Virus record (IMG/VR): IMGVR_UViG_3300046722_000126
Span: 1 to 28,991 of that record
Reading direction: 5' to 3' (one strand)
DNA length: 28,991 bases
From: a virus
Position 1 is the stretch's first letter, and each line of letters opens with the position of its first letter. The position numbers were made by a program, and so were the translations under genes. Below the pieces are notes generated by a model, which saw only the letters and a list, made by a program, of their open reading frames with translations, was not told the origin of the DNA and ran no database searches. This document shows positions 9,241-26,912 of this stretch, piece after piece.

Positions 9241-12200
9241 TCACTCCTTTTTGGGTGGCGTCCCCTCGCGATATTTTTCAGTATCAGTCCAATAAGAATA
9301 AGCACCCCAGCCCGCCAGACCCGCCGAACCCAGGTATTTGATCGGTCCCGGGAGCGAGGTCAGTGCCGCGATCAGAGTGCGGGAATAGGCTGGCACAATG
9401 TCGTCCAAGATCCCGAGTGCGGTCATCATCGCGCCGCTGCCACTGTCACGCTCGGCGGCCTTGGCGTCAGCCTTGGCGGCGGCAGTGTCCTCCTCGCCCG
9501 GCATCTTCGGCATCTCCGGCATCTTGATTTCCGCGTCCTCGGGTGGTGCCGGCGTGGTGCCCTTCTCGCTGGTCAGCCAGTCGGCCACTGTTTCACCGGC
9601 CCTGCGGGAACTGGTGAACGCGTTGATCGCCCCGCTGCCGAACACACCGAGCGGTCCCAGCGCGGCCCCTATTCGCGACAAGACGAAGGCGAGCATCGGC
9701 AGGATCGTCATGTTGTAAGCAGACGCCGCCTGGTTATGCAGCCGCGTGTTGGTCGAGCTTGGTTCGCCGGCCCCGAACATCGGCGTGATGACGTTCTGCA
9801 GATCCTGCATCATGCTGGCCATGCCCGGGCCGTCCGTGATTTCGCTCAGAGAGGTCTTGAACCGCAACTGGTTGACCGTGGCCAGTGGCAGGGTGAACTT
9901 GCCCTGCAGCCCGCTGGCGCTCAGGGCATAGTCCCGCAAGAACTCCCCGAACCGGTCCTCGTCATGCAGCCTATCCCATAGATCACGCGAGAAAAGCCAG
10001 ATGCGTGGAATGGCGGTCAGCATAGTGATCATCAGGAAGGTGCCTGCCAGCATCGCCAGGTGAGCGGTTGCCCATGCTCCAGAGGCCGCACCAAAACCGG
10101 CGCTCGCCGTCTTGCCGTAGCCTTGTCCCCGGGCACGTTGATACGCCCGCCCGGTGGCTTCGGGGATACTGTGTATCGCCGGCCCGATTACGTTGCGGTC
10201 CATGCTGTAGTTGAAAGACTGAAACTGCAGCATCAACCGCAGCACCGGATCCTCGGCCATCATCGGCTGCTCGGCCTTGGACGGGTTCTGGACACCCCGG
10301 TTGACCAGCCGTCGCATCGCCAGCGCGTAGGTGGTTTTCCAGTTGGAGTTTAGCATTTCCTCCATCGTCGGGAGACCGTCATGCGCGATCATCCATGAGG
10401 CAAACGCTTCGCGCGTTTCATCATCCTGTGGGATGCCGATCTCATTCATCATGCGATCGGCTTTGTCCCATTTCGTGTGCAACGTGTTGTAATGGATACC
10501 CTTCTGCGGTCCCTGGTAGTTGCGAAAACGTAGCCAGTCGTTGCTGATCTTGCCGAGATACCAATGCATCGCCGCGCCCGACGCGCGCCGGTTGGCGTTG
10601 TTCAGCGCGGTCATGCCGGACATCCGATAGAGCGCTGGCATCATGCGATGAAAGCCCATGCTGTCGGCATACTCGGTGCCGTTGCGCGCCTGCATCGCAT
10701 CATCATACATGACCCCGGTGGTCACGCCGATGAAGTCCATCAACTCCGCGCGCTGCACCGCGTCAGATGTGTGCATCAGATTGCCGAATTGTGCCGCGAA
10801 TGCCTTGAGTCCGACCCGAACGTCCTGGGTGGCAAGCGCGCTCACATATGGTTCGCTTAGCATCGAGAGTGCCGAGCGACCGAGCAAGCGCACCACGCCA
10901 TAGGCTTGCACGACATTGGCGAACTTAGCGAAGTTGCGTAGTCTGCGACTGGATGTGCGCCCGGCGACGGCTTCGACAACGTCACGCACGACGCCGATAT
11001 CTTCGCCCTTGAAACCGCCGTCCTTGCCCTGCTGGTGCATCAAGTGGATCAGCCGCTCCAGTTCCCGCCCCCCAACCGAGGCCGCCGAAGGATGGCCGAA
11101 CGTTTCGACATACGCTTGCTTGCGACCCGCCGAGAGCATATAGCCGGCCAGCACGCTCTGCACGTCCCGCATCAGCCATTTTTCCATGATCTGATCGGTC
11201 TCCGGCGGCAGCACGCGCGCTTTCATAAATGACGCGTTGGGACCGACCGTGTCGAAATCGTTCGGATATCCTTTGGCGATGCGCCCTTCCCATTCGGTGG
11301 CAGCATTCTTGGAGAGATCATCCCGCACCGCCGGGTGATGTTTTTCTGCGAGTTCGCGCGCTGCGTCTTTTAATGCATCAAGCTGATCCTGACGCTTGGC
11401 CTTGTCCCCCGTAAAGTTTGGATCGTTCAGGTCACGTTCAATCGCGCGCTGCTCGCGTAGGTTGGCAGCAAGCGCATCCATGCCGTCGATGGTTTCCTGC
11501 GTGCCGATGTTGCGCCGGTCATCGTCTGACAAGGTGCGCCAACGATCGAGCAACGCTTGCGGGTCGTCTCCCGAGGGACCGACCTCCTGGTCGAAGATCA
11601 GCTTGTGCAGTTCGGTGGCATCCAGAATGAACCCCTGGCTGTCGCGCCAGATCCGCTTGGTGTCGTATTGCCGCGGGAAATGCCCGCTTTTGCTGTAGCC
11701 GATCTTCAGGCCCGCGTCGCTGAGACTTTTGAATACCTCGTCCATCAATTCGCGTAGCTGACCGACCGCCTTCTTCATGTTCTCTGACAGCGGCTTGCCC
11801 TGGTATTCGTCCTCGCCCGTGGTGAGTGCATGGCGCAACGCATCATTGTTTGAGTAATTCTTACCGCGCAGCTGCTTCCCGGCCAGGTTCTTGTTGGCCA
11901 GGATGTTGGACATCCGCATCACCCAGCCCTTGCCTAGCTCCTGCGAACGCTCCTCGAATGTCGGTTGCGGTGATCCACGCCCGCTGCCGGGTTTCATCGC
12001 GAGCTTGTCAATGATCGCTTGCAACGCTTCAGTGGCTTCGCGGGCGAGCCCTTGATTGACGCCGTGCGCGTGCATCACTTCAAGCGCGCCCACCTTAATC
12101 CCCAGCGTGGTCCGCATGTAGTGCGCGATCCGCTGCACCAGCTTGAAGTGCCCAGGATCCGGGCGCGAGCCATCGGTGAACGCGGTCTCCCGCCACGCTT

Positions 12201-15200
12201 CCACGGGGTGCGCCAACCCTTGGCCGGCTTCCTGCAATCCCCGCCGGATGAATTTCCACAAGCCCGGTTCGACGATCTGCTGCAGCCGGTCCATCGCACC
12301 GCGATCGAGCTTGTCCCCCTGATCGGAAAACAACTTGCCGTTGTCGCCGTATTTGTATTGGTTCTGGATTTCACTGTGCAGCACGGAGAACGCCTGCAGG
12401 ATCGCCGCGTAGTCGTCCTGTGGCGGATAGGTCATCCGCAACCGTCTGATCAACTGGTCGGCGTAAGCTGCCGTGGGCATAAATACGCCTACCGGATCGA
12501 CGCCCATGGCCTCCATCTCGCGCGCCATGACGGCCTCGTGCGCGCGGGTGATCATTTCGTAAGCCGTGCTGTAGTAGTCGTCTTTCGCACCGCCGCCGAA
12601 GGTTTGCGACAGCGCGCGGAAACGGCTCATGTCAATGGCACCGCTCTCCTCGCCGATCGTGAGCTTGTCGAGTTCGGCTTGGGCATCCTGCGCTTTCGGC
12701 GTGGGGTTGCCGAACCGGTCAACCTCCTGTGCCTCGGTCTCCCAGCGGAAGCGTTGCGCCACCAGATGCGCGTCATCGTAGAACAGCGTCTGCATCACAT
12801 GGATCAGTGCCGCCTGCACCGGATCGGTGACCGGCGAGACCGCCGCACCCTGTGTTATCATCTCGCTAGCCAGCGGTCGCTTGAACGCGGCGGGCGGCAC
12901 GATGTAGGGCAGCTTGTAAGCGAGCCAGTGATCGAGCGCGTGCAGCCATTCATGGCCGAGCGAGTTCGCTGTGCCGGTCAGATGGATAGTGTTCGGACCT
13001 GGGCTGAAGGCACCGGCGTAATCAACTTTTGGATGATACGGTTCCAGTATAAGACCCTTGAGGAAATTCGTGACCTGTCCTGTTGCGCTGATCTCTGGCA
13101 GGCCAAAAAACGCGTGCTGATATCCGAGCGCCGGCATCATGTCGTGCGTGGCGCGATATACATCGAGGATTACGCTGCGGGCCTGCAACAGGTCCATGTC
13201 GGGAGCCAGCGTGACGGGAACACCAAACTTTGCCTCGAACTGCTTGCTGAGCGTGTCAACCTGCCATTTGATCGGCTTGCTGGTGGCAAGGTCGGGATCG
13301 TGCCCCGCATCGGTGAACGCCTGCCGCCACACGCTGCTGCCGTCGCGGAATTGGTAATCTGCATAATTCGCCGGGTCCTGTGGACGCTTCGGACGGAACG
13401 GCGATATCACGCGCGGCATGGGTTTTTTCCCGGTGGCGGCGCGAGAAGCACGCCCGGGCATCCGTTTCAACAGCTTGTCGCGGGTCGCAGTCAGCGCCGC
13501 GAGTTGCTTTTCCTGCGCCTTCAACTTGCGTGCTTCAGCGGGTTTAATCGTGGCACCCTTGGCGCGCAATGCGTCCACCGATGCCTGCAGGGGAGCGAGT
13601 TGCTTGTTGCGTTGGTCGAGCTCACTCTGCAGCTGCGGCAGCCGCGCGGTGATGGTGTCGGTCTCTGGTTCACCGCCTGCTGCTTCACGATCAGCTTCCT
13701 CACGCGTCACACCACGCCGCGCCAGGCTTTCGTCTGTCTCCCGCATCCGAATGCTCGCGGCTCTGTCGCGTAGCACATCGCGAGCCGCATCAACCTTCGC
13801 CTTGTCCAGCAAGCCACCTTGTTTGCCTTCGCGTGCTTCCTTCAACGCGTTCGCCGGGTCGGGCTGGGTTTCGTTGCCGAACAGATCTTTGCCCGGCTTG
13901 AAGGTGAGCGCCTGGTCGACGTAATCGCTCAACGCCTCGCTGATCCCTTTGCGCGAGCGCAGCCGGTCCAGCTTGTCGTTGTAGAACGTGCGGATGATCT
14001 GCTCGGTGATCGGGTCGACCTGGCCGGCGAACACGTCGCCCTGCTTGAGCATGTCCCCCGGCGCGATGCCCTTGGCGCGCGCCTGGGTGATCAGATCGAG
14101 CGCTTCCGTCAGGTTCTTGGTGATATCAAACGCGCCCGGGATGCGATCGGCAGTGACCTCGGCTTTCATCTTCGACCACGGCGCTGCGACATCCATCAGC
14201 GAGTTGGTGACCGACTTCACGTCGTCGTTCGGGCTTTCCAGCGCCCGCCGCAGGATCGCATCGTGGTTGTAGGCTTTCGCCAGCACGGCACCCTGCAGCC
14301 GCTGAATGCCCTGTTGCGACAGCTGGCCGTTGGCATCCAGCAAGCGGTTGCGCTCGGTCGGGGGCAGTGACTGCATCCAGTCGCGGATGAACCCCTGATT
14401 TTTGCCGTGCGTCAGCGGAACCGCCGGGTCGTATTTGTCGAGCGCGGTATCAGACAGGTTCTTGGCGTCGACCTTGGCCTGTTCCACCGGGGACATGGTC
14501 ATCGCCCGGGTGACATTGGATGCCTCGGCGAACGCACGCGCCTGTTCGGGTGTCAGATCCCCCGTCCGCCGGATCAGCACCGGCGTGGTCATGCCGGTGG
14601 TGTCGTGCCCGAGACGTTCGATCTCGGCACGGTATGCCTGGTATTTTTCGGGATGCAGTTCCGCGGCACGCTGGATGGTGGCGAGCCTGCCGTTGCCGGC
14701 GAGCACCGTGCCATCCGGCATGACCACGGGGGCACCGATATCCGCCACCGGTGACGTGGTGACCTGATTCGGATCGAGCCGCGCGGCGTTCTCGGCGATC
14801 TGTGCCTCGGATGACGCGCGTGTGGCGCGATCGCGTGGTTGCAGGTCCCCGGTCGCCGGCTTGAGCGAATTCGCTTCCACCACCTGGTATTCGGTGGGGA
14901 GTGACACGCCGGGGACCGCGGTGCTGACTTCCTGTGTCTTTGTTGTGTCGGTCGCGGTAGGTTGCTTTTGATCTTGGGAGGTATCCGTTGATGGCTCTTG
15001 ACCCGTTGATCCTTGCCCGGCCCCTGGAAGGGGCTGACCCCCGCCAGCAGCACTACCAGGAACAACGCCGCCAGTGGACGGAGCGGGAACGATGGGATGC
15101 GATTGATCGGTCGGCTCATCGGCTGGAGTTGGTGCTGGCGCGGGCGGCTGATCTTGTTCAGGCGTTGGAAACGGTTCTGGCGCGGGCGGTCCCGCCGCTT

Positions 15201-16497
15201 CCTTCGGACCAAAATACTCCTTCGGACCAAACTGTTCCTGTTCCTTCGGCCCGAATGCCTCCTTCGGACCAAAATATTCCTTCGGACCAAACTGCTCACG
15301 CTCTTGGCCGGGAACCGGGAGATCCGGTGATTCCTGCTCTGTTGGCTTTGGCGCAGCACCTGGGGCCGCAAGTTGCTGCTGACCCGCCGGCGGGGGCGGT
15401 TCCTCCGCTCCGGTCACCCCAAACGACAGCGTCCCCTCTCGGGGCGTCGTCAGATGCCTGACCGCAGCGTGACCCGCGGCGAACATACTGCCGCTGATCA
15501 CGTCCGATAGCGCGCCCTCGGCTTGCTGCTGCAAGCCCGGCTGTGGCTCGCCAGTGAGCGCCGGAATTGCCGCACGCTCGGCAGTGCCGATCACCGGGGC
15601 GGTGACCAGCGAGTGAAACAGGATGTTTGATATCGCCGCCTTGAACGGCGCCAGGGCGAACAACGGCGCGGTGATGGCACTGATTGAACCATTGGCGGCG
15701 GCGATCGTAATCGCCTGATTGACGGCCTCGTCGTGCGACATCTCAGGATGCTGTGCACGAACCTGGTCATAAGCGGGGACCAGCGCCTGGGCTGCCGCCA
15801 TCACTCCCATGCCGAGTGCCGAGCCCACGGCAGCACCGGGGACCGCACCAAACAAGCCGGTGGTCTCCCCTGCCGCCGCGCCGGCTGCACCCCCGAGGAA
15901 CATCCCGGCGGTTGTGGGCGCCGAGTGACCGAACGCCTCACCGATCCTGCCCATCGGCGTGCGTTCGACCGGTGCCTCCGGTGGTTGATCGACGAAGGCA
16001 TTACCCGCGGCCAGTCGTTGGCCTTCACGGGTTGCCCGGCCCATGCCGCTGGGGATGCTTTCTATAAACCCTGGCCGGAGATCCGGCGGTGCGCCGGATG
16101 GCCCGACACCTGTGCCGAGTGTGCCGCCGCCGATTAACTCGCCGGTTGTTGGGTCGATATCGGCTTGAGGCAGTGGCGTGGGTGTTGGTGTAGACCCAGG
16201 CACCGCTGGTGCAGCGAATGTTGGAGCTCCAGGGACATCCGCCTGAACCTCTTGCCCCACCACAGCTGACAACGCGCGGGGGTCGACCGGTGGCATGGGC
16301 GCGGATGGGGCTGGCATGGGTGCCGCGGCCACCGACGGAGGCGGTGGCGCCACCGCGGCGTTGAGCGGCTTCTGAGCGGGTGCGCGCTCGGCCTCGGTGT
16401 CGAGCACCCAGTTCAGCTTTCCCCCGCTGGTGGAGGCAGACGGTTCCGAGGTTTTCGCGGCCTCGGTGTCGAGCACCCAGTTCAGGCCATCCGGCAT
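9241..16497 (-). CDS. Giant 2418-residue polyvalent protein, internal virion/ejection type
   Basis: Visible regions in order: two LNWVLDTEA repeats (5-13, 28-36); a Pro/Ala linker; a Gly/Ala-rich hydrophobic stretch (about 190-245); FGPKE repeats (about 400-434); a ddrB-ParB-like domain (about 534-830) with NGRLATIQRA near 600; a coiled coil (about 930-1010); an LPD1-like domain with an HExxH motif, HEWLHALDH (His1182, Glu1183, His1186); a long helical part; and a hydrophobic segment (about 2135-2165) in a C-terminal region resembling LPD38. Large polyvalent proteins of this kind occur in phages and conjugative elements and are thought to travel with the DNA and blunt host defence; P1 DdrB is a known capsid-delivered example. 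Position matches T7 gene 16. Domain names are from memory of the families; delivery and any enzyme activity are inferred. Confidence 0.85.
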   Translation of the reverse strand: MPDGLNWVLDTEAAKTSEPSASTSGGKLNWVLDTEAERAPAQKPLNAAVAPPPPSVAAAPMPAPSAPMPPVDPRALSAVVGQEVQADVPGAPTFAAPAVPGSTPTPTPLPQADIDPTTGELIGGGTLGTGVGPSGAPPDLRPGFIESIPSGMGRATREGQRLAAGNAFVDQPPEAPVERTPMGRIGEAFGHSAPTTAGMFLGGAAGAAAGETTGLFGAVPGAAVGSALGMGVMAAAQALVPAYDQVRAQHPEMSHDEAVNQAITIAAANGSISAITAPLFALAPFKAAISNILFHSLVTAPVIGTAERAAIPALTGEPQPGLQQQAEGALSDVISGSMFAAGHAAVRHLTTPREGTLSFGVTGAEEPPPPAGQQQLAAPGAAPKPTEQESPDLPVPGQEREQFGPKEYFGPKEAFGPKEQEQFGPKEYFGPKEAAGPPAPEPFPTPEQDQPPAPAPTPADEPTDQSHPIVPAPSTGGVVPGSAAGGGQPLPGAGQGSTGQEPSTDTSQDQKQPTATDTTKTQEVSTAVPGVSLPTEYQVVEANSLKPATGDLQPRDRATRASSEAQIAENAARLDPNQVTTSPVADIGAPVVMPDGTVLAGNGRLATIQRAAELHPEKYQAYRAEIERLGHDTTGMTTPVLIRRTGDLTPEQARAFAEASNVTRAMTMSPVEQAKVDAKNLSDTALDKYDPAVPLTHGKNQGFIRDWMQSLPPTERNRLLDANGQLSQQGIQRLQGAVLAKAYNHDAILRRALESPNDDVKSVTNSLMDVAAPWSKMKAEVTADRIPGAFDITKNLTEALDLITQARAKGIAPGDMLKQGDVFAGQVDPITEQIIRTFYNDKLDRLRSRKGISEALSDYVDQALTFKPGKDLFGNETQPDPANALKEAREGKQGGLLDKAKVDAARDVLRDRAASIRMRETDESLARRGVTREEADREAAGGEPETDTITARLPQLQSELDQRNKQLAPLQASVDALRAKGATIKPAEARKLKAQEKQLAALTATRDKLLKRMPGRASRAATGKKPMPRVISPFRPKRPQDPANYADYQFRDGSSVWRQAFTDAGHDPDLATSKPIKWQVDTLSKQFEAKFGVPVTLAPDMDLLQARSVILDVYRATHDMMPALGYQHAFFGLPEISATGQVTNFLKGLILEPYHPKVDYAGAFSPGPNTIHLTGTANSLGHEWLHALDHWLAYKLPYIVPPAAFKRPLASEMITQGAAVSPVTDPVQAALIHVMQTLFYDDAHLVAQRFRWETEAQEVDRFGNPTPKAQDAQAELDKLTIGEESGAIDMSRFRALSQTFGGGAKDDYYSTAYEMITRAHEAVMAREMEAMGVDPVGVFMPTAAYADQLIRRLRMTYPPQDDYAAILQAFSVLHSEIQNQYKYGDNGKLFSDQGDKLDRGAMDRLQQIVEPGLWKFIRRGLQEAGQGLAHPVEAWRETAFTDGSRPDPGHFKLVQRIAHYMRTTLGIKVGALEVMHAHGVNQGLAREATEALQAIIDKLAMKPGSGRGSPQPTFEERSQELGKGWVMRMSNILANKNLAGKQLRGKNYSNNDALRHALTTGEDEYQGKPLSENMKKAVGQLRELMDEVFKSLSDAGLKIGYSKSGHFPRQYDTKRIWRDSQGFILDATELHKLIFDQEVGPSGDDPQALLDRWRTLSDDDRRNIGTQETIDGMDALAANLREQRAIERDLNDPNFTGDKAKRQDQLDALKDAARELAEKHHPAVRDDLSKNAATEWEGRIAKGYPNDFDTVGPNASFMKARVLPPETDQIMEKWLMRDVQSVLAGYMLSAGRKQAYVETFGHPSAASVGGRELERLIHLMHQQGKDGGFKGEDIGVVRDVVEAVAGRTSSRRLRNFAKFANVVQAYGVVRLLGRSALSMLSEPYVSALATQDVRVGLKAFAAQFGNLMHTSDAVQRAELMDFIGVTTGVMYDDAMQARNGTEYADSMGFHRMMPALYRMSGMTALNNANRRASGAAMHWYLGKISNDWLRFRNYQGPQKGIHYNTLHTKWDKADRMMNEIGIPQDDETREAFASWMIAHDGLPTMEEMLNSNWKTTYALAMRRLVNRGVQNPSKAEQPMMAEDPVLRLMLQFQSFNYSMDRNVIGPAIHSIPEATGRAYQRARGQGYGKTASAGFGAASGAWATAHLAMLAGTFLMITMLTAIPRIWLFSRDLWDRLHDEDRFGEFLRDYALSASGLQGKFTLPLATVNQLRFKTSLSEITDGPGMASMMQDLQNVITPMFGAGEPSSTNTRLHNQAASAYNMTILPMLAFVLSRIGAALGPLGVFGSGAINAFTSSRRAGETVADWLTSEKGTTPAPPEDAEIKMPEMPKMPGEEDTAAAKADAKAAERDSGSGAMMTALGILDDIVPAYSRTLIAALTSLPGPIKYLGSAGLAGWGAYSYWTDTEKYREGTPPKKE
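15197..15300 (-). repeat. FGPKE repeats within the giant protein
   Basis: Five FGPKE units in a row, separated by one to three residues, are encoded by near-identical DNA (repeats of CCTTCGGACCAAA and variants). They lie in a disordered Pro-rich linker at about residues 400-434. Copy number probably varies by slippage. A flexible spacer or a small docking motif is the likely role. Confidence 0.85.
16389..16416 (-). repeat. 28-bp repeat encoding LNWVLDTEA, copy 2
   Basis: This is identical over 28 bp to 16458-16485 and lies 69 bp (23 codons) away. It encodes residues 28-36 of the giant protein. Identity at the DNA level means a recent duplication or strong selection. Confidence 0.9.
16458..16485 (-). 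repeat. 28-bp repeat encoding LNWVLDTEA, copy 1
   Basis: This is the first copy of the repeat, at the extreme N-terminus of the giant protein (residues 5-13). Because it starts 5 residues after the initiator, the motif may work as an N-terminal tag for packaging or release. Confidence 0.9.
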
Positions 16498-17213
16498 CAG
16501 CCGATGCCCGTCTGAGCCTGCTGATCCTTCTGGGCGCGCTGGGCTGCCTGGGTGAACGCGTCAGCCAGGCTGGGCGGGGCACCGGGGACACCGGCCCCCG
16601 GCAGGGGCATCCCGCCCATGGCGAGCGCCGCTGATGCGGGCGGCGCGGCGGGTTGCGGGGGACCAGCAGGCGGTCCCCCGGCGCCAGGCGCTACCACGGA
16701 CGCCAGGGGCGTGCCTGGTGGCTGGCCAGGCTGGGGGATCGGTCCCGTGGATCCCTTGCCGGCCATGCCCATCACGGTGTCCGCATAGCGGGACGCACCA
16801 GGCAAGCCTTCCAAGCCACGGCTGGCCACCGCGTGGGGACCGGAGGCATAGGCCCCCAGCGCCTTGCGGTAGTCGCCGCCAAACTGGTTGAGGTTCTGGC
16901 GCATGAACAACGCCGCCGCCGGGATGGCTTGCTTGGGGTCGCGCGGGTCGATCTTGAACGCCGCCGCGGTGGCCGGCATGAACTGGCCGATGCCGATCTC
17001 GCCGCCGGGGCCGATGGCGTTCGGGTTGAGCCCGCTTTCGTGCACCAGCATGGCGCGGAAGATCGCCGGGTCGATGTTGTATTGCTGCGCCGCCTGGGCG
17101 ATCAGCTGCTCGATCGGGTTGGCTCCCGCGGGCGCGGGAGCCGGTGGACCTTGCACGGGCGGTCCCGCCGGGGGTGCGGCAACCGGGGGACCGGCAGGAA
17201 AATCTTCGGCCAT
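16497..17213 (-). CDS. SLT-type lytic transglycosylase, virion-associated
   Basis: This is a 238-residue protein; ATG 17213 is preceded by GAGGG. A Pro-rich N-terminus (1-31) leads into a soluble-lytic-transglycosylase domain (33-150): catalytic Glu59 in LVHESGLNP, then GGEIGIGQFMPATA (70-83) and GAYASGP, the three usual motifs. The C-terminus is Pro/Gly/Ala-rich. Such enzymes cleave the glycan strands of peptidoglycan. In T7 the SLT domain is fused inside gp16; here it is a separate gene immediately before the gene 16-like gene, overlapping it by one base, so the two proteins probably work together to open the cell wall during DNA ejection. A role in lysis is less likely, as there is no signal peptide. 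Confidence 0.9.
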   Translation of the reverse strand: MAEDFPAGPPVAAPPAGPPVQGPPAPAPAGANPIEQLIAQAAQQYNIDPAIFRAMLVHESGLNPNAIGPGGEIGIGQFMPATAAAFKIDPRDPKQAIPAAALFMRQNLNQFGGDYRKALGAYASGPHAVASRGLEGLPGASRYADTVMGMAGKGSTGPIPQPGQPPGTPLASVVAPGAGGPPAGPPQPAAPPASAALAMGGMPLPGAGVPGAPPSLADAFTQAAQRAQKDQQAQTGIG

Positions 17214-17225
17214 GGGACCCTCGCT

Positions 17226-18941
17226 CTATCGTGGGTAGACGAAACCGTTGTGCACAACACCGGTCATGTTGCCGGCACGCACCGGGTCACCCTCTTTCAG
17301 GTTGCTGGGCGCAATGCTGATCGCACCCGGTTCATAGGGTTTCAACTGCGGAACAACGTAGCGCGACTGCGTTTTGCCGCCCGGGTTGACCTGTTGCTTG
17401 ATCCTCTCATCGTGGCCGAGATACTTGCCTGCCACATCGAACATGCTCTGCATGTCCGCCTGCTTCGGCATGTGACCGGTCGCCTGCAGTTCGTTGATCG
17501 CTTGGTCAACCGCCACAGTGTGATTGTGGTAGGCCGCGGAACTGCGATCGGTGTGGGCATAGATTTCCTGTGCACGCGTGAGAACGTCCGCTTGTTCGTG
17601 CGGATCGAGTTGCACCGGCAGCTCGCGCTGAAACCCTTCGGTCGGTGCGAACAACTGCGGCACCCGCGTATTCAAATGGTTCTCTGCGCCGATCTGTTCC
17701 TGCACCGTCATGGCTTGCGAGGGCTGCATCGCTTGTGTCGCGGCGCCGACATCCCGCGCGGCTTGCGGCTGGCCGCCGATACCCAGTTGCAGCGCCAACG
17801 CGTGCATCTGATCCACGCTTTTGGCCGTCATCGGCAGATGCTGTTCGCGCGCCTCCTTGAAGGTGGCAACGCTTATCGTGCCGTCCTTGTTGTAGGTTTC
17901 GACCATCGCGCCGTCGAGCCGTTGCTGCGCGGCAGCGTCCTGCGCCTGCTGGCGCTGGAGCGCGCCGGCTTCGACCATGCTGGTGCGCGTGGTCTGGCCA
18001 GTTTGTTCGGCCTCGGTGCGCTGGCCGGCGCCGGTCTGCCGCAACTGCTCCTGAGTAATGCCGGCGTTGGCCTGGATCTGCGCCGAACCCAAGGTCCCTC
18101 GCAGGGTTTGATCAGATTGATAGCGGCCCGTATCGGCCTGCGTCTTGGTGCCGAACACTGTCGAGCCGAGATCCGCGGTCAGCTGATCCGCGCGATCGGC
18201 GATGTTTTTGGCGGTGCCGACCGGCAGGGTGCCGCGTTGTTCGGCATCCCGGATGTAACCGAGGATGCCCATCTTGGCCAATTCGGGGTTGCGCCCGGTC
18301 ATGCCCATCAGCGCGGTATAGGTGGCGAGGTCGAACTGGGGTGGCGCGGGCGAACCATTCGGCGCCGCCGGCCCGGCGTATTTCTGTCCCCCATCGGGCG
18401 CCGTGACGCTGTTCATGTGCAGCGGACCGTCTCCCTGGTTGTTAGTCGGCACCTGGCCGTTCGACGTGGTCGTGTTGGGTGCCGGGGGCGCGCCAGGCGA
18501 GGGTGATGACGCCGGTGGCGGCGTGCCGGTGGCACCGAGCCCCTTGGCGTTCGGTTCGTTGCCGGGAGCTATGATGTTGGCCAGCACCTCGGGAGGCGGT
18601 ATTGCCGGGGTTGCCTGTCCCCCGCCCGCCACAGTCTGGCCCAGGCTCGGTTGTTGCTGACCAACAGTGTCCTGCAGCACCATCGTGCCGGACGCTGGAT
18701 CGGGGGTGAACTGCAGCGGTGCCTGAGCCAGCCCGCTGCCCGGTCCCCTGGCGAGAATCTGGTGCCCGGCAGCGATGCCTTCCCGAGCCTGTGCCGCTTG
18801 TAGCTGGGCTTTGCGCTGTTCGGCGCCGTAATAGCCCGCGCGTGCGATGTTCGACGGATCGGGAAACAAGCCTTGTGCCAGCGTGCCGAGGCCGCGATCC
18901 CAGTTCGCGTCACCGCTCGGCTGAAAGAACGTGCCGCTCAT
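17226..18941 (-). CDS. Internal virion protein, T7 gp15-like position
   Basis: This 571-residue protein begins at ATG 18941, overlapping the previous stop (ATGA). The N-terminal segment (FFQPSGDANWDRGLGTLAQGLFPDPS) is followed by Ala/Gln-rich helices, a long Pro/Gly/Thr-rich linker with VAGGGQATPAIPPPEV and PPPASSPSPGAPPAPN (about 125-170), more helices with Gln-rich stretches, and a C-terminal beta-like GDPVRAGNMTGVVHNGF. I cannot match it to a family with certainty. Size, Gln/Ala bias and the slot between a gp14-like protein and the transglycosylase/giant pair suggest the gp15-like part of the ejection apparatus. No catalytic motif is visible. Confidence 0.6.
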   Translation of the reverse strand: MSGTFFQPSGDANWDRGLGTLAQGLFPDPSNIARAGYYGAEQRKAQLQAAQAREGIAAGHQILARGPGSGLAQAPLQFTPDPASGTMVLQDTVGQQQPSLGQTVAGGGQATPAIPPPEVLANIIAPGNEPNAKGLGATGTPPPASSPSPGAPPAPNTTTSNGQVPTNNQGDGPLHMNSVTAPDGGQKYAGPAAPNGSPAPPQFDLATYTALMGMTGRNPELAKMGILGYIRDAEQRGTLPVGTAKNIADRADQLTADLGSTVFGTKTQADTGRYQSDQTLRGTLGSAQIQANAGITQEQLRQTGAGQRTEAEQTGQTTRTSMVEAGALQRQQAQDAAAQQRLDGAMVETYNKDGTISVATFKEAREQHLPMTAKSVDQMHALALQLGIGGQPQAARDVGAATQAMQPSQAMTVQEQIGAENHLNTRVPQLFAPTEGFQRELPVQLDPHEQADVLTRAQEIYAHTDRSSAAYHNHTVAVDQAINELQATGHMPKQADMQSMFDVAGKYLGHDERIKQQVNPGGKTQSRYVVPQLKPYEPGAISIAPSNLKEGDPVRAGNMTGVVHNGFVYPR

Positions 18942-19960
18942 GTGATCTGCCCTAAATTGATCGTGCCCGCCGGATCAGTTTTCAGGAAACCGGGCAGGGT
19001 GCCGTAACGCCCGGCGCCGTAGAGCCCGAGTTGCCCCACGCTGCTGACGATGCCGCCGAGCGACTGCTGGTAAGCCGCGTCGGCCTTGGCTTGAGCGGCC
19101 CGGTTCGCCGCGATGGTATCTGCATCGGACTGCGCCAGGTTGGCAGTGGAGACCGCGTTGCCGTAGCTCAGCCCCGCAGTGTCGAGTGCGCCCTGTCCCC
19201 GCGAGGCGATCAACTGGTCCATCGCCTGGCCGAGGTCCCCCGCATTGCGATAGGCGACCTGCGAGGGCAGCAACCGTGTGGCGCTGCCTGAACGTAACAG
19301 GCTCTCGGCGGCCTGGGCGGGCATGATGCCGTATTGGTTGGCGGCGATTGCCTGGCCGATATCTGCTGTTGGCTGGCTGTAGGACTGCAGCGCAGACACC
19401 TTCGAGCCGTAGGTCCGAACGTTGGTGGCGGCCTCCGCCAGGCGACGCTTGACCGCGTCCTGGGTTGCTGTGTCTCCCGTGCCCTGCGGGTCGGTCGGCG
19501 CCGGTCCCTGCGGGGCGGCCTGCCCGAGCAACAAAGCCCCTTGTGCGGCAGCATTCTGCTGACCCTGCGCCAGCTGTGGCCCGGTGGTCTGCTGCAACAA
19601 GGTCTGCGCCGCCTGGTCCCCGGTCCCCCGCAGCGCTTCGGCCTGCTTGTTCTCGGCGGCCAGGATATCCTGCTGGCTCTGTTGCGCGTTCAGCTGCGCG
19701 GTGCGCATCGAAGTCGCCGCCGTAGAGCGATCGGCCATAGTCTGCTGCATCGCGGCACTCTGCGCCGCGGTCTGCGCGTTGGCCGCCGCCATGCGCTGGG
19801 TGAACGCCTGGTTTTGTGCCGCCGTGGTGGCTTGGTTCTGTTGGGCGATGGCGTTTGCCGCACGAGACTGCGCTTGTGACGACATAACCGCACCACCAGC
19901 CGAGGCGGCTGCGCCAACTCCGGCGGCGATAGCGGTGAGGGTTGAGGCTGCAATGGTCAT
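18938..19960 (-). CDS. Internal virion protein, gp14-like
   Basis: This is a 340-residue protein. GGAGG lies 9 bases before ATG 19960, inside the end of the previous gene. The first 27 residues (LTAIAAGVGAAASAGGAV) are a small-residue hydrophobic helix, then residues 30-160 are Gln/Ala-rich coiled-coil-like sequence. The C-terminus holds a glycine-rich stretch around GQLGLYGAGRYGTLPGF. In T7, gp14 also starts with a membrane-active helix and is ejected into the outer membrane. The match is to the general design, not to a specific family. The stop overlaps the next start by four bases. Confidence 0.6.
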   Translation of the reverse strand: MTIAASTLTAIAAGVGAAASAGGAVMSSQAQSRAANAIAQQNQATTAAQNQAFTQRMAAANAQTAAQSAAMQQTMADRSTAATSMRTAQLNAQQSQQDILAAENKQAEALRGTGDQAAQTLLQQTTGPQLAQGQQNAAAQGALLLGQAAPQGPAPTDPQGTGDTATQDAVKRRLAEAATNVRTYGSKVSALQSYSQPTADIGQAIAANQYGIMPAQAAESLLRSGSATRLLPSQVAYRNAGDLGQAMDQLIASRGQGALDTAGLSYGNAVSTANLAQSDADTIAANRAAQAKADAAYQQSLGGIVSSVGQLGLYGAGRYGTLPGFLKTDPAGTINLGQIT

Positions 19961-19964
19961 TCGC

Positions 19965-21005
19965 TCAGTCCTCCAGGCTCAGCCGGTAAAGCTGGCCGAA
20001 ATCCTCGGCACCCATCCGGCGGTAAAACGTGCCCAGTCGCGGCCCCTCGCCCGACACACTGGCGCGCAACTGGATGTCACGCACACCACGCTCTTTCAGC
20101 GTTCGTGCCGCCACCTGTTGCAGTTTAAAACCGAGGTTCTTGATCAGAGGTGACGCAAAAAACGCAGTATGGGACGCGGTCAGCTTGTTCTCGGCGTCGA
20201 GCGCGGGACCGACCACCGACATGAGATATCCGAACAGCCGTCCGTTGCTGCGCGCGGTGACGATCTGCAGCGCACGGGCATCATCCATTTTGCGCAACAG
20301 AGGCACGTTGATCTCAGAACCGGCATCGGGAGACCGATCGGTCAGCACCAAATGCTCTTGAATCAGCAACATCGCTTCGTCATAAGAAGCCATCGTTTCG
20401 GTTTGGAATGTCACTCCGTCAATCTCCGGCGAACGCCATAGTGTGGTGAGCATCCGGTGCTTGGCCTGCCGTGTCAGTTTGTCGAGTTGAGCGCGATGTG
20501 CGACGCAATAGCGCGCAATATGCTCCAGATTAACCTGAACATTGAGCGGGTCGAACTTCTGCCACCAAACAGGATCACAGGGTTGTCCGAGACAATGCTC
20601 GAACAGCGTGGCGCAAGTGGCTTCCATCGATAAATCAGCATAAGCGAACGTCCGCACCCCCGGCACGCGACGCTCGATCTGGTCCAGCTTATGATCAAAC
20701 CGCTGGATCATGCGTGGATCAAACACGCCCCCTATTGCTGTCAACGACCGCACCACGTCATCAACAGGCCGGCGGATCGTCACCACCCGCACGTCAGGTC
20801 GGTAGTGCAGCAACAAACGCCAGAACGGCGCGCCGGCGGTTTCCACCGTTCCGGTGCAAGGTTGCGCCAGCCACGATTTAACATCATCGAGCGATCGGCA
20901 ATGGCGGATCTCGTCATGCCCGCACTGCCACGCACCATGCGTCAGGAAATACGACAACCAGCGGGACCGGCTGCGCGGCAGGCAAAAGATGACGAACGGC
21001 GCCAT
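19965..21005 (-). CDS. Sulfotransferase-like P-loop protein fused to GNAT acetyltransferase-like domain
   Basis: This is a 346-residue protein; ATG 21005 follows AGGGA. The N-terminal half (1-200) starts with FVIFCLPRSRSRWLSYFLTH, where PRSRSRWLS (10-18) matches the 5'-phosphosulfate loop of PAPS-dependent sulfotransferases, and VRVVTIRRPVDDVVRSL is the second conserved segment, a helix following the RxP. The C-terminal half (about 215-346) has a GNAT-like pattern: FFASPLIKNLGFKLQQVAARTLKERGVRDIQL, then LGTFYRRMGAEDF near the end, the usual final beta-bulge. Phage proteins with LPRSR(T/S)xWLS are common and poorly understood. The fusion of the two folds in a virion operon is unusual. Substrates are unknown, so I claim the folds, not a reaction. 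Confidence 0.7.
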   Translation of the reverse strand: MAPFVIFCLPRSRSRWLSYFLTHGAWQCGHDEIRHCRSLDDVKSWLAQPCTGTVETAGAPFWRLLLHYRPDVRVVTIRRPVDDVVRSLTAIGGVFDPRMIQRFDHKLDQIERRVPGVRTFAYADLSMEATCATLFEHCLGQPCDPVWWQKFDPLNVQVNLEHIARYCVAHRAQLDKLTRQAKHRMLTTLWRSPEIDGVTFQTETMASYDEAMLLIQEHLVLTDRSPDAGSEINVPLLRKMDDARALQIVTARSNGRLFGYLMSVVGPALDAENKLTASHTAFFASPLIKNLGFKLQQVAARTLKERGVRDIQLRASVSGEGPRLGTFYRRMGAEDFGQLYRLSLED

Positions 21006-21950: not shown

Positions 21951-22376
21951 TTATTGTCCTCCAACGCTAGAGTTATACCACTTTTGGTTGCGTGCCAACA
22001 GACAACGCCTGCACAGGCGTATATGCGGGCGCGTTGGTTGCCGGTAAACGTTATCGTCGCCGAGCCAGTGACCTTTGCTACAACAGAACCGACGCTCAAC
22101 CCGATCGCGTCGATTGTCTGCGTCGGTGCCTAAATACAAATGATCAGGGTTAACGCAGAGCGGCACATCGCATTTATGCAGAACGTGTTTCCCTTGGGGT
22201 ATCTCACCGTTGATACCGGCCCACACCAGCCGTGCGGCATTAACTTTGATTGTGCGACCATTCTGCCAGATGTTTTGTTCTGCACGCACACTCTTGCGAT
22301 GACGTTTTACGCTACCCGTCCATAACCAGCACCCCGAGTTTGGTTCAGGGATATATTGCTCAGACCAGTGTTGCAT
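21951..22376 (-). CDS. HNH homing endonuclease
   Basis: This is a 141-residue protein; TAGGAAG (a ribosome site) stands before ATG 22376. The N-terminal IPEPNSGCWLWTGS is a signature of phage HNH enzymes, and the HNH core reads HVLHKCDVPLCVNPDHLYLGT (about residues 65-85). A second zinc-binding set, CCSKGHW and CRRC, follows in the C-terminal part. Such genes are free-standing selfish elements that cut related phage DNA and spread between genomes. Here it lies between the 13-like and 14-like genes, overlaps the end of the former by 70 bases, and its last codons supply the ribosome site for the next gene. Neither neighbour is split by it, so it is inter-genic rather than inside an intron. Confidence 0.9.
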   Translation of the reverse strand: MQHWSEQYIPEPNSGCWLWTGSVKRHRKSVRAEQNIWQNGRTIKVNAARLVWAGINGEIPQGKHVLHKCDVPLCVNPDHLYLGTDADNRRDRVERRFCCSKGHWLGDDNVYRQPTRPHIRLCRRCLLARNQKWYNSSVGGQ

Positions 22377-25829: not shown

Positions 25830-26912
25830 TCAGGCGATCGCCACCACGAGTGACGAATTCACCTGCTGTGCAACCATCTGACCGGTGTGCGTCATCGACT
25901 TATACATGACGAACTGGTTGTAAGGCCGTGCCGGCGTGAACCGGTGGTCCCATTCGCCGTCCTGCTTCATCAGGTAGATGTGTCGAGGATCCCACCAGTA
26001 GCCAAACTTGGCCCGACCAAGGTCATCAAGCGTCGGGTCGTATTCGACCGTCGTGCCACCGAACTTGACCTGGCCCATTTGCCCGTCCTGCGTTCCGGTG
26101 AAACCGGTCATCGAGTAGTTGCCGTTGGCGCGGATCTCGGTTTCCAGTGCCGAGATGAACGACGATCCGGCGAGGAACTTTGTCGGTCGCCCCCCGTAAC
26201 GGATCAGCTGGCGGTATTCCTGTTGCAGGAACTGGAACAGCGCCCCGCCATTGGCCGGATCAGAGGTCACCGCGCCGCGTCCACCGGCGGTGCCGAACGC
26301 TGGGCAGGCCGAACGGTTCTGCCACCAGACATTGGACGAGCGTGCCAGCCCGCCGAGTGTCCCCGCATTGGGCACGTCCACAATGATCGACTGGATGCCG
26401 GCCAGCGCCTTGGCGTCCGATGTGCCGTCGCCCCACATAAGGGCGTTCATCGAACGCGCATATTGCTCGCCGAAATCCTCCAGCTTGTCCTGCAGCAGGT
26501 TCACCAGGACCGTGACATCACGATCCGAGTGGTTGGACACGCTGGACCCGTCACCTTCGTCATCCGTCACGCTGATGCCGTCGATCTTCAGCTCAGTGTG
26601 AGTGAGCGTCAGACCCATGTGATGTTCACGCCACGGGAAGTTCACCCGCTTGATATTGGCGGGCGTGTAGAAGTTGACGGTGTCATTGTGGGTGTAGCCA
26701 ACGACATGATCGTTGACGCCGCCCGCACCGTAGTCACCCTTCACCGCAAGCGAAATGTTTCCCTTGCCGCCGGGGAACGACTTGGCGCCGCTCTCCAGAA
26801 ACCTGAGAAGGGGTTTCGCCTGGATCGACTGCTTGAAGGTATCTCCTTTGTTGTAATAAAAATCGAGTGCTGCGTTGGCGATATTGGTTAGCTCGCCAGC
26901 TGTGAAAGCCAT
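25830..26912 (-). CDS. Major capsid protein
   Basis: This is a 360-residue protein. ATG 26912 follows CAGGAC, and the gene sits directly after the scaffold gene. Segments typical of podovirus major capsid proteins: an N-terminal helix, a GKGNISLAVKGDYG loop (the E-loop region), VNFPWREHHMGLTLTHTEL, a long helix (LLQDKLEDFGEQYARSMNALMWGDGT) and a C-terminal PYNQFVMYKSMTHTGQMV strand. The fold is probably HK97-like; this is family knowledge. No sign of a cleavable prohead extension is evident. A hairpin follows the stop codon. Confidence 0.85.
   Translation of the reverse strand: MAFTAGELTNIANAALDFYYNKGDTFKQSIQAKPLLRFLESGAKSFPGGKGNISLAVKGDYGAGGVNDHVVGYTHNDTVNFYTPANIKRVNFPWREHHMGLTLTHTELKIDGISVTDDEGDGSSVSNHSDRDVTVLVNLLQDKLEDFGEQYARSMNALMWGDGTSDAKALAGIQSIIVDVPNAGTLGGLARSSNVWWQNRSACPAFGTAGGRGAVTSDPANGGALFQFLQQEYRQLIRYGGRPTKFLAGSSFISALETEIRANGNYSMTGFTGTQDGQMGQVKFGGTTVEYDPTLDDLGRAKFGYWWDPRHIYLMKQDGEWDHRFTPARPYNQFVMYKSMTHTGQMVAQQVNSSLVVAIA

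Follow-up and report, generated by a model that had tools for sequence, protein, structure and literature searches.

The stretch of DNA analysed here, an IMG/VR virus record of 28,991 bases (hereafter "the window"), contains on its minus strand between positions 9241 and 16497 a single uninterrupted open reading frame of 2418 codons, referred to as the giant ORF in the following. Across the same interval the plus strand shows many stops. Dozens of IMG/VR contigs carry, in the corresponding position downstream of the capsid genes, full-length homologues of the encoded protein (1748 to 2723 amino acids, median 2286), so that the frame does not result from chance. A first-pass annotation, which named no strand, had proposed a protein of 2418 residues at this position, and both the uninterrupted frame and the syntenic homologues bear this out. 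The minus strand harbours, in this order, a portal-position gene, a scaffold-position gene, the capsid protein gene, an SU10-type adaptor gene, a stabilisation-position gene, several small genes, the gp14-position and gp15-position genes, the gene of a 238-residue SLT transglycosylase and, finally, the giant ORF. On the plus strand of the window a SNF2 helicase, a DUF2800/PD-(D/E)XK nuclease, a ParB_N protein and DNA polymerase A are encoded. The genes relevant to the following are:

25830..26912, minus strand: major capsid protein (phrog_9953, E 1.1e-32; 80-95% identical in relatives)
18938..19960, minus strand: gp14-position gene, 340 aa (synteny in relatives; no PHROG match)
17226..18941, minus strand: gp15-position gene, 571 aa (synteny in relatives; no PHROG match)
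16497..17213, minus strand: SLT transglycosylase gene, 238 aa (Pfam SLT, E 5.8e-20)
9241..16497, minus strand: giant ORF, 2418 aa, probable ejection protein of gp16-like type carrying a zincin protease and a DdrB payload

The SLT gene also matches phrog_342 (internal virion protein with endolysin domain) with an E-value of 4.8e-25, and its TGA stop overlaps with the ATG of the giant ORF in the sequence TGATG, one base being common to both. In many close relatives no SLT match is found immediately upstream of the giant-ORF homologue. Location of the giant ORF after the gp14- and gp15-position genes and beside the SLT gene, together with the fold described below, supports the gene 16 position that had been assigned to it. 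The designation "T7-like", which the first-pass annotation had extended to the whole phage, fits the core proteins, but the genome is not necessarily T7-like. A search of 16 related contigs for a phage RNA polymerase of the T7 type gave no match, the control search being equally empty. Two further frames were observed in this region. Positions 19965-21005, among the core genes, hold a 346-residue ORF whose N-terminal part is weakly sulfotransferase-like and whose C-terminal part is weakly acetyltransferase-like, while an ORF that by its sequence looks HNH-type lies at 21951-22376 within the structural gene block and overlaps its neighbours.

Within the giant ORF, about 1400 residues (linkers, payload and zincin) stand N-terminal to the gp16-like body. 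From the N- to the C-terminus the following features are distinguished:

16459..16485, minus strand: N-terminal motif copy 1, LNWVLDTEA (residues 5-13)
16390..16416, minus strand: N-terminal motif copy 2, LNWVLDTEA (residues 28-36)
15463..16089, minus strand: Gly/Ala-rich N-terminal block (residues 137-345), conserved in the close clade
13819..14985, minus strand: putative payload, the DdrB module, consisting of ParB domain and helical extension (residues 505-893; own profile)
14566..14907, minus strand: ddrB-ParB domain, PF18763 (residues 531-644; E 2.6e-27)
14686..14697, minus strand: GNGR motif including the ParB active-site Arg604 (G601, N602 and R604 in 37/37 sequences)
12349..13374, minus strand: predicted unit of zincin metallopeptidase and LPD1 (residues 1042-1383; AlphaFold pLDDT 83.8; zincin structural matches)
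12928..12954, minus strand: HEWLHALDH, predicted active-site helix (residues 1182-1190; H1182, E1183, H1186 and D1189 in 75/75)
12370..12585, minus strand: LPD1 (residues 1305-1376), containing E1314, R1318 and E1321
9247..12324, minus strand: putative gp16-like core-protein body (residues 1392-2417), predicted all-helical (pLDDT 82.2; BFVD and PDB matches; hhalign)

The C-terminal body

The predicted model of residues 1390-2418 is all-helical (pLDDT 82.2). It includes two weakly hydrophobic segments (2145-2163 and 2263-2281), which is what remains of a previously suggested "membrane-like C-terminal region"; otherwise the region of about 1000 residues is simply helical. Comparison of this model with BFVD retrieves proteins annotated as "Internal virion protein D", internal core protein or internal virion protein with a probability of 1.00, among them those of VP2, RSB3, LKA1, JG068 and others, alongside large polyvalent proteins. 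When the model is compared with solved structures by VIA-align, phage core proteins occupy rows 1-3 and 6, with chain 8vb2_A of the PhiM1 ejectosome first (Z 9.2, 272 residues, rmsd 4.8) and further including the T7 core protein 9jyy_I (Z 8.5 over 286 residues), E1004 (Z 7.3) and 7eyb_I (Z 6.7). Plain Foldseek against the PDB gives no match at E <= 0.001. As a Z of 8-9 is, according to the tool's own note, modest for a helical protein, sequence was compared by hhalign. The family profile aligns collinearly with JG068 gp39, an internal virion protein, over 306 columns (probability 88, E 3.2e-6). The match to T7 gp16 is weaker (E 0.0058), and that to LKA1 is not significant (E 0.06). The profile segments covered by the three alignments overlap, and each alignment ends at a common QFxSF motif. 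Because fold, profile match, gene position and SLT coupling agree, the C-terminal part of about 1000 residues is best read, from sequence and predicted model, as the body of a gp16-type core protein. The gp16-like fold, the remote profile match and the gene-16 position beside the SLT gene also sustain the earlier proposal that the protein is built into the ejection apparatus.

The predicted metallopeptidase and LPD1

The giant ORF protein contains only one HExxH motif, HEWLHALDH at residue 1182, which lies outside the LPD1 match. The first-pass annotation had combined both in one LPD1-like domain. LPD1 is most likely present, but the motif belongs to a zincin just ahead of it. Nine residues (N1178, H1182, E1183, H1186, D1189, Y1308, E1314, R1318 and E1321) are constant in 75/75 relatives; the invariance of H1182 and E1183 is in part due to selection because one of the two search patterns included HE, while the other residues were in neither pattern. 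Phage-type zincins carry an aspartate three residues downstream of HExxH (PMC5512222), and in the giant ORF protein HExxH, this aspartate and a glutamate in a later helix (E1314) are all found. In the VIA-align comparison of an AlphaFold model of residues 1030-1400 (pLDDT 83.8) all 50 of the 50 listed matches are HExxH zincins, the M34 peptidase fold coming first, followed by Pro-Pro endopeptidases and M4 enzymes (best match: Z 9.4, 191 aligned residues, rmsd 5.1). Plain Foldseek of this model against the PDB returned nothing significant, nor did a PDB sequence search with the single giant ORF protein give any match; the family profile retrieved weak zincin matches (E 0.008). Structure comparison, proposed earlier as a check, finds the gp16-type body by VIA-align and BFVD and the zincins by VIA-align, but is not significant by plain PDB Foldseek for either model. 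Judged by its sequence and predicted structure, the domain around HEWLHALDH is a zincin metallopeptidase. An NCBIfam match to CLCA_X near the zincin motif was sub-threshold and was discarded.

Pfam LPD1 (PF18796) matches the giant ORF protein at residues 1305-1376 below the cut-off (E 0.011, 16.2 bits versus 27). Within its own family, LPD1 matches at E <= 0.01 occur in 20 of 22 members (best 5e-10), and the closest isolate homologue matches in the aligned place with an E-value of 1.8e-12; because of these two observations we consider LPD1 real. In P0002 the homologous place scores 47.5 bits, above the cut-off of 27.

The DdrB module and the N-terminal motifs

At residues 531-644 the giant ORF protein matches Pfam PF18763 (ddrB-ParB) with 95.8 bits versus a cut-off of 27.6 (E 2.6e-27). 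The similarity exceeds the Pfam domain, since a stretch of about 380 residues (505-893) can be aligned to P1 DdrB as well as to other phage proteins; the module was delimited with a profile which was built in this analysis and had the giant ORF protein among its seed sequences. The ParB residues Q553, R555, R557, G601, N602, R604 and Y622 are invariant in 37/37 sequences, P1 DdrB included. R604 is the active-site arginine and Y622 the lineage-specific tyrosine described by Iyer et al., who proposed an NTP-regulated nuclease or NTP sensor for DdrB-ParB (PMC5512222). With a score far above the cut-off and the catalytic Arg and Tyr kept, the ddrB-ParB-like domain assumed in the first-pass annotation is firmly established.

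The N-terminus of the giant ORF protein attains a repeat score of 47 (shuffle maximum 29), and LNWVLDTEA occurs neither in the rest of the window nor in the loci of about 8-32 kb that were searched. N-terminal repeats score above all 40 shuffles in 38 of 67 proteins. Most close relatives carry two to three near-identical copies of a motif of about 8-14 residues within the first ~150 residues (motif-bearing N-termini: L117-L139, L140, L143-L145, L147, L171 and L217). The motif is uniform inside one protein and unrelated across phages, as exemplified by LNWVLDTEA, LPMATILPDD, FTVDTYQPL, LIPADEWEPV and GWTMDPPP. This array appears to be exchanged as a whole. The first 30 residues of P1 DarB (PMC9024508) offer an analogy, according to which it may represent a capsid-targeting signal.

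An exchangeable region among relatives

Scanning IMG/VR with the whole giant ORF protein as a single sequence gave no match. Relatives were gathered by their capsid protein and then by family alignment, which yielded 79 distinct ones, including contigs binned with alphaproteobacteria. Throughout these relatives the protease-LPD1 unit and the body are constant, while the region ahead of the protease, termed the slot, varies. In 68 relatives the slot is readable. The DdrB module is present in 32 of them and missing from 34; two are partial, L132 having kept the helical part without the ParB part and L189 being truncated at its start. When the slot label is mapped onto a phylogeny built from the constant part, at least 10 changes are required, nine of which are forced by well-supported branches, compared to 23 in shuffles; therefore the DdrB label is inherited but has repeatedly been gained or lost. 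In L173 the slot contains the DdrB module, which is missing from the sister protein L217 although the constant part is 87% identical in DNA. L162 and L164 differ within the slot by an in-frame payload difference of about 170 codons, flanked on both sides by DNA that is 97-98% identical. The slot of L176 is occupied by an ADP-ribosyltransferase of the polyvalent type (ART-PolyVal, E 2.4e-29) and that of L135 by a sequence with a weak ADP-ribosyltransferase match, while other relatives contain domains without a Pfam match, or almost nothing, at this place. Within the close clade the capsid proteins are 80-95% identical, the giant proteins about 28-38% over their common C-terminal part. Protease and gp16-like body are constant, and the payload before the protease has been exchanged repeatedly among related phages.

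For several common slot domains the scanned members gave no match in Pfam. A domain of about 165 residues is common to the slots of L127, L137/L164 and L121, and one of about 280 residues to those of L118, L130, L133 and L136; neither matches Pfam in the members scanned. An assignment by eye of the ~165-residue domain (L127/L137/L121) as an ADP-ribosyltransferase was rejected, as it found no profile support versus the L176 ART and no Pfam match. As a separate observation, L126:2-4861 encodes a single polypeptide that combines SLT, the DdrB module and the zincin and in which the N-terminal motif flanks the SLT domain on both sides.

Discussion

Since the giant ORF product, a large late-gene protein, unites several disparate domains, its earlier classification as a polyvalent protein is justified, and a link of this protein to ejection is very likely. 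Polyvalent proteins with DdrB-ParB, zincin and LPD domains in late genes have already been described, as has the fusion of DdrB-ParB with lysozyme (PMC5512222). The giant ORF product shares with the proteins of Iyer et al. 2017 its large size, its late-gene setting, DdrB-ParB, a zincin with downstream Asp and, most likely, LPD1. In contrast to that work, whose text (PMC5512222) mentions neither gp16 nor internal virion proteins, the family described here combines one gp16-like body with alternative payloads. In the literature searched, which omits most subscription journals, we found no description of a constant gp16-like body with an interchangeable slot.

In T7, gp16 contributes to the trans-envelope channel that is ejected, and it bears the lytic transglycosylase (PMC11440229). 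With T7 gp16, with internal virion protein D and with the PhiM1 ejectosome (PDB 8VB2) the giant ORF product has in common the helical body fold, the position as last core-protein gene and a linked SLT activity. T7 gp16, however, comprises 1318 residues with the endolysin domain fused, whereas the SLT of the giant ORF resides in a separate gene. P1 DdrB is a head protein homologous to the DdrB module over about 300 residues and followed by a zincin motif (HELGH), but it has 995 residues, belongs to a myophage, aids DarB packaging, and no gp16-like body is recognised in it. Alcaligenes phage Piluca and Acinetobacter phage TPWB-05 likewise encode, in an ejection-gene position, Epsilon15-gp16-like proteins with a DdrB module, and the Piluca protein additionally contains an SLT domain. 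These proteins are shorter (956 and 949 residues) and have a different body, and Piluca shows no LPD1 match. The protein UUJ74515 of Microcystis phage Mae-Yong1326-1 (2441 residues, annotated as "peptidoglycan transglycosylase") shares zincin-LPD1, the gp16-like body and the gene order, with 29% identity over residues 1044-2312 (E 2e-124), but it lacks the DdrB module and possesses a second HExxH motif upstream. We would like to note that Mae-Yong1326-1 (L002, OP028995.1) was reported as a Microcystis phage with a long flexible tail, yet a short-tail-type module is present in its deposited genome, and relatives of this phage in the giant-ORF set sit in alphaproteobacterial bins. The deposited genome and the imaged particle may not be from the same phage. 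A precedent for a giant polyvalent protein in a podovirus virion is provided by phage JC1, in which a DarB-like protein of 4515 residues was found by mass spectrometry (PMC9144972).

Taken together, the giant ORF product is probably a core (ejection) protein of the gp16 type that has been turned into a payload carrier in a podovirus-like phage. Its location in the virion, its injection, its self-cleavage and its payload role are what we infer from the domains and their arrangement. The chain would be packed as a core protein with its body on the portal inside the head. Preceding the DNA, the body would leave the head together with the other core proteins and would help to form a channel across the envelope, while the separate, translationally coupled SLT protein would open the wall, a task for which T7 carries an SLT domain in gp16 itself. 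The zincin peptidase would most likely cut the chain during or after ejection; the payload would thereby be freed inside the cell, and its ParB-type enzyme might act there on NTPs or DNA early in infection. Self-cleavage by the zincin is a guess, as N4 vRNAP possesses a domain of this kind and is packaged uncut (PMC5512222).

It is also conceivable, though in our opinion unlikely, that DdrB module and zincin serve packing or maturation of the core in the head and that nothing acts in the host cytoplasm. P1 DdrB, well represented in the head with 39 peptides, is listed with the role "Aids DarB addition to capsid" (PMC9024508), and DdrB is dispensable for plating. N4 vRNAP requires its zincin region for encapsidation (PMC5512222). 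Yet half of the family lacks the module or has something else in its place, with the capsid proteins staying similar, which fits cargo better. Invariance of the ParB active-site residues and the occupation of the same slot by an ADP-ribosyltransferase in one relative equally speak against a role confined to assembly.

If the slot does carry a payload, this may be an anti-restriction or other anti-defence effector, as put forward in the first-pass annotation; we regard this more specific proposal as doubtful. Its precedent, P1 DdrB as a counter-defence protein, holds in so far as P1 needs DdrB together with DarB and Ulx against EcoB and EcoK (PMC12810830), but is weakened by the listing of DdrB as a DarB packaging aid (PMC9024508). 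Because P1 DdrB aids DarB packaging, yet is needed against EcoB/EcoK, anti-defence is one among several possible jobs of the payload. Frequent exchange among near-identical phages resembles an arms race, and DNA or NTPs are possible substrates of ParB-type enzymes (PMC5512222). The same pattern would, however, be expected from host takeover, superinfection exclusion or DNA processing, and PADLOC, whose library comprises models of defence and not of counter-defence, gave no match. The non-significant plain Foldseek search of the C-terminal part against the PDB might suggest a conventional tail or structural protein which is unrelated to ejection and whose domain similarities are incidental. This is highly improbable given that gp16-type core proteins lead the VIA-align list and recur through the viral-structure list, and given the gene-16 position with SLT.

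The reading as a gp16-type core protein turned payload carrier joins two literatures, that on polyvalent proteins, whose route of cell entry is mostly assumed, and that on gp16-type core proteins, with a route established in T7. Should it be true, the slot of this family constitutes a catalogue of candidate early-infection effectors, comprising DdrB-ParB, ADP-ribosyltransferase and several further domains. More tentatively, the gp16-type ejection protein might represent a general delivery chassis composed of a phage-specific motif array at the N-terminus as loading signal, an exchangeable cargo slot, a cargo-freeing protease and a channel-forming body. In that case cargo would be swappable between phages with the virion remaining unchanged.
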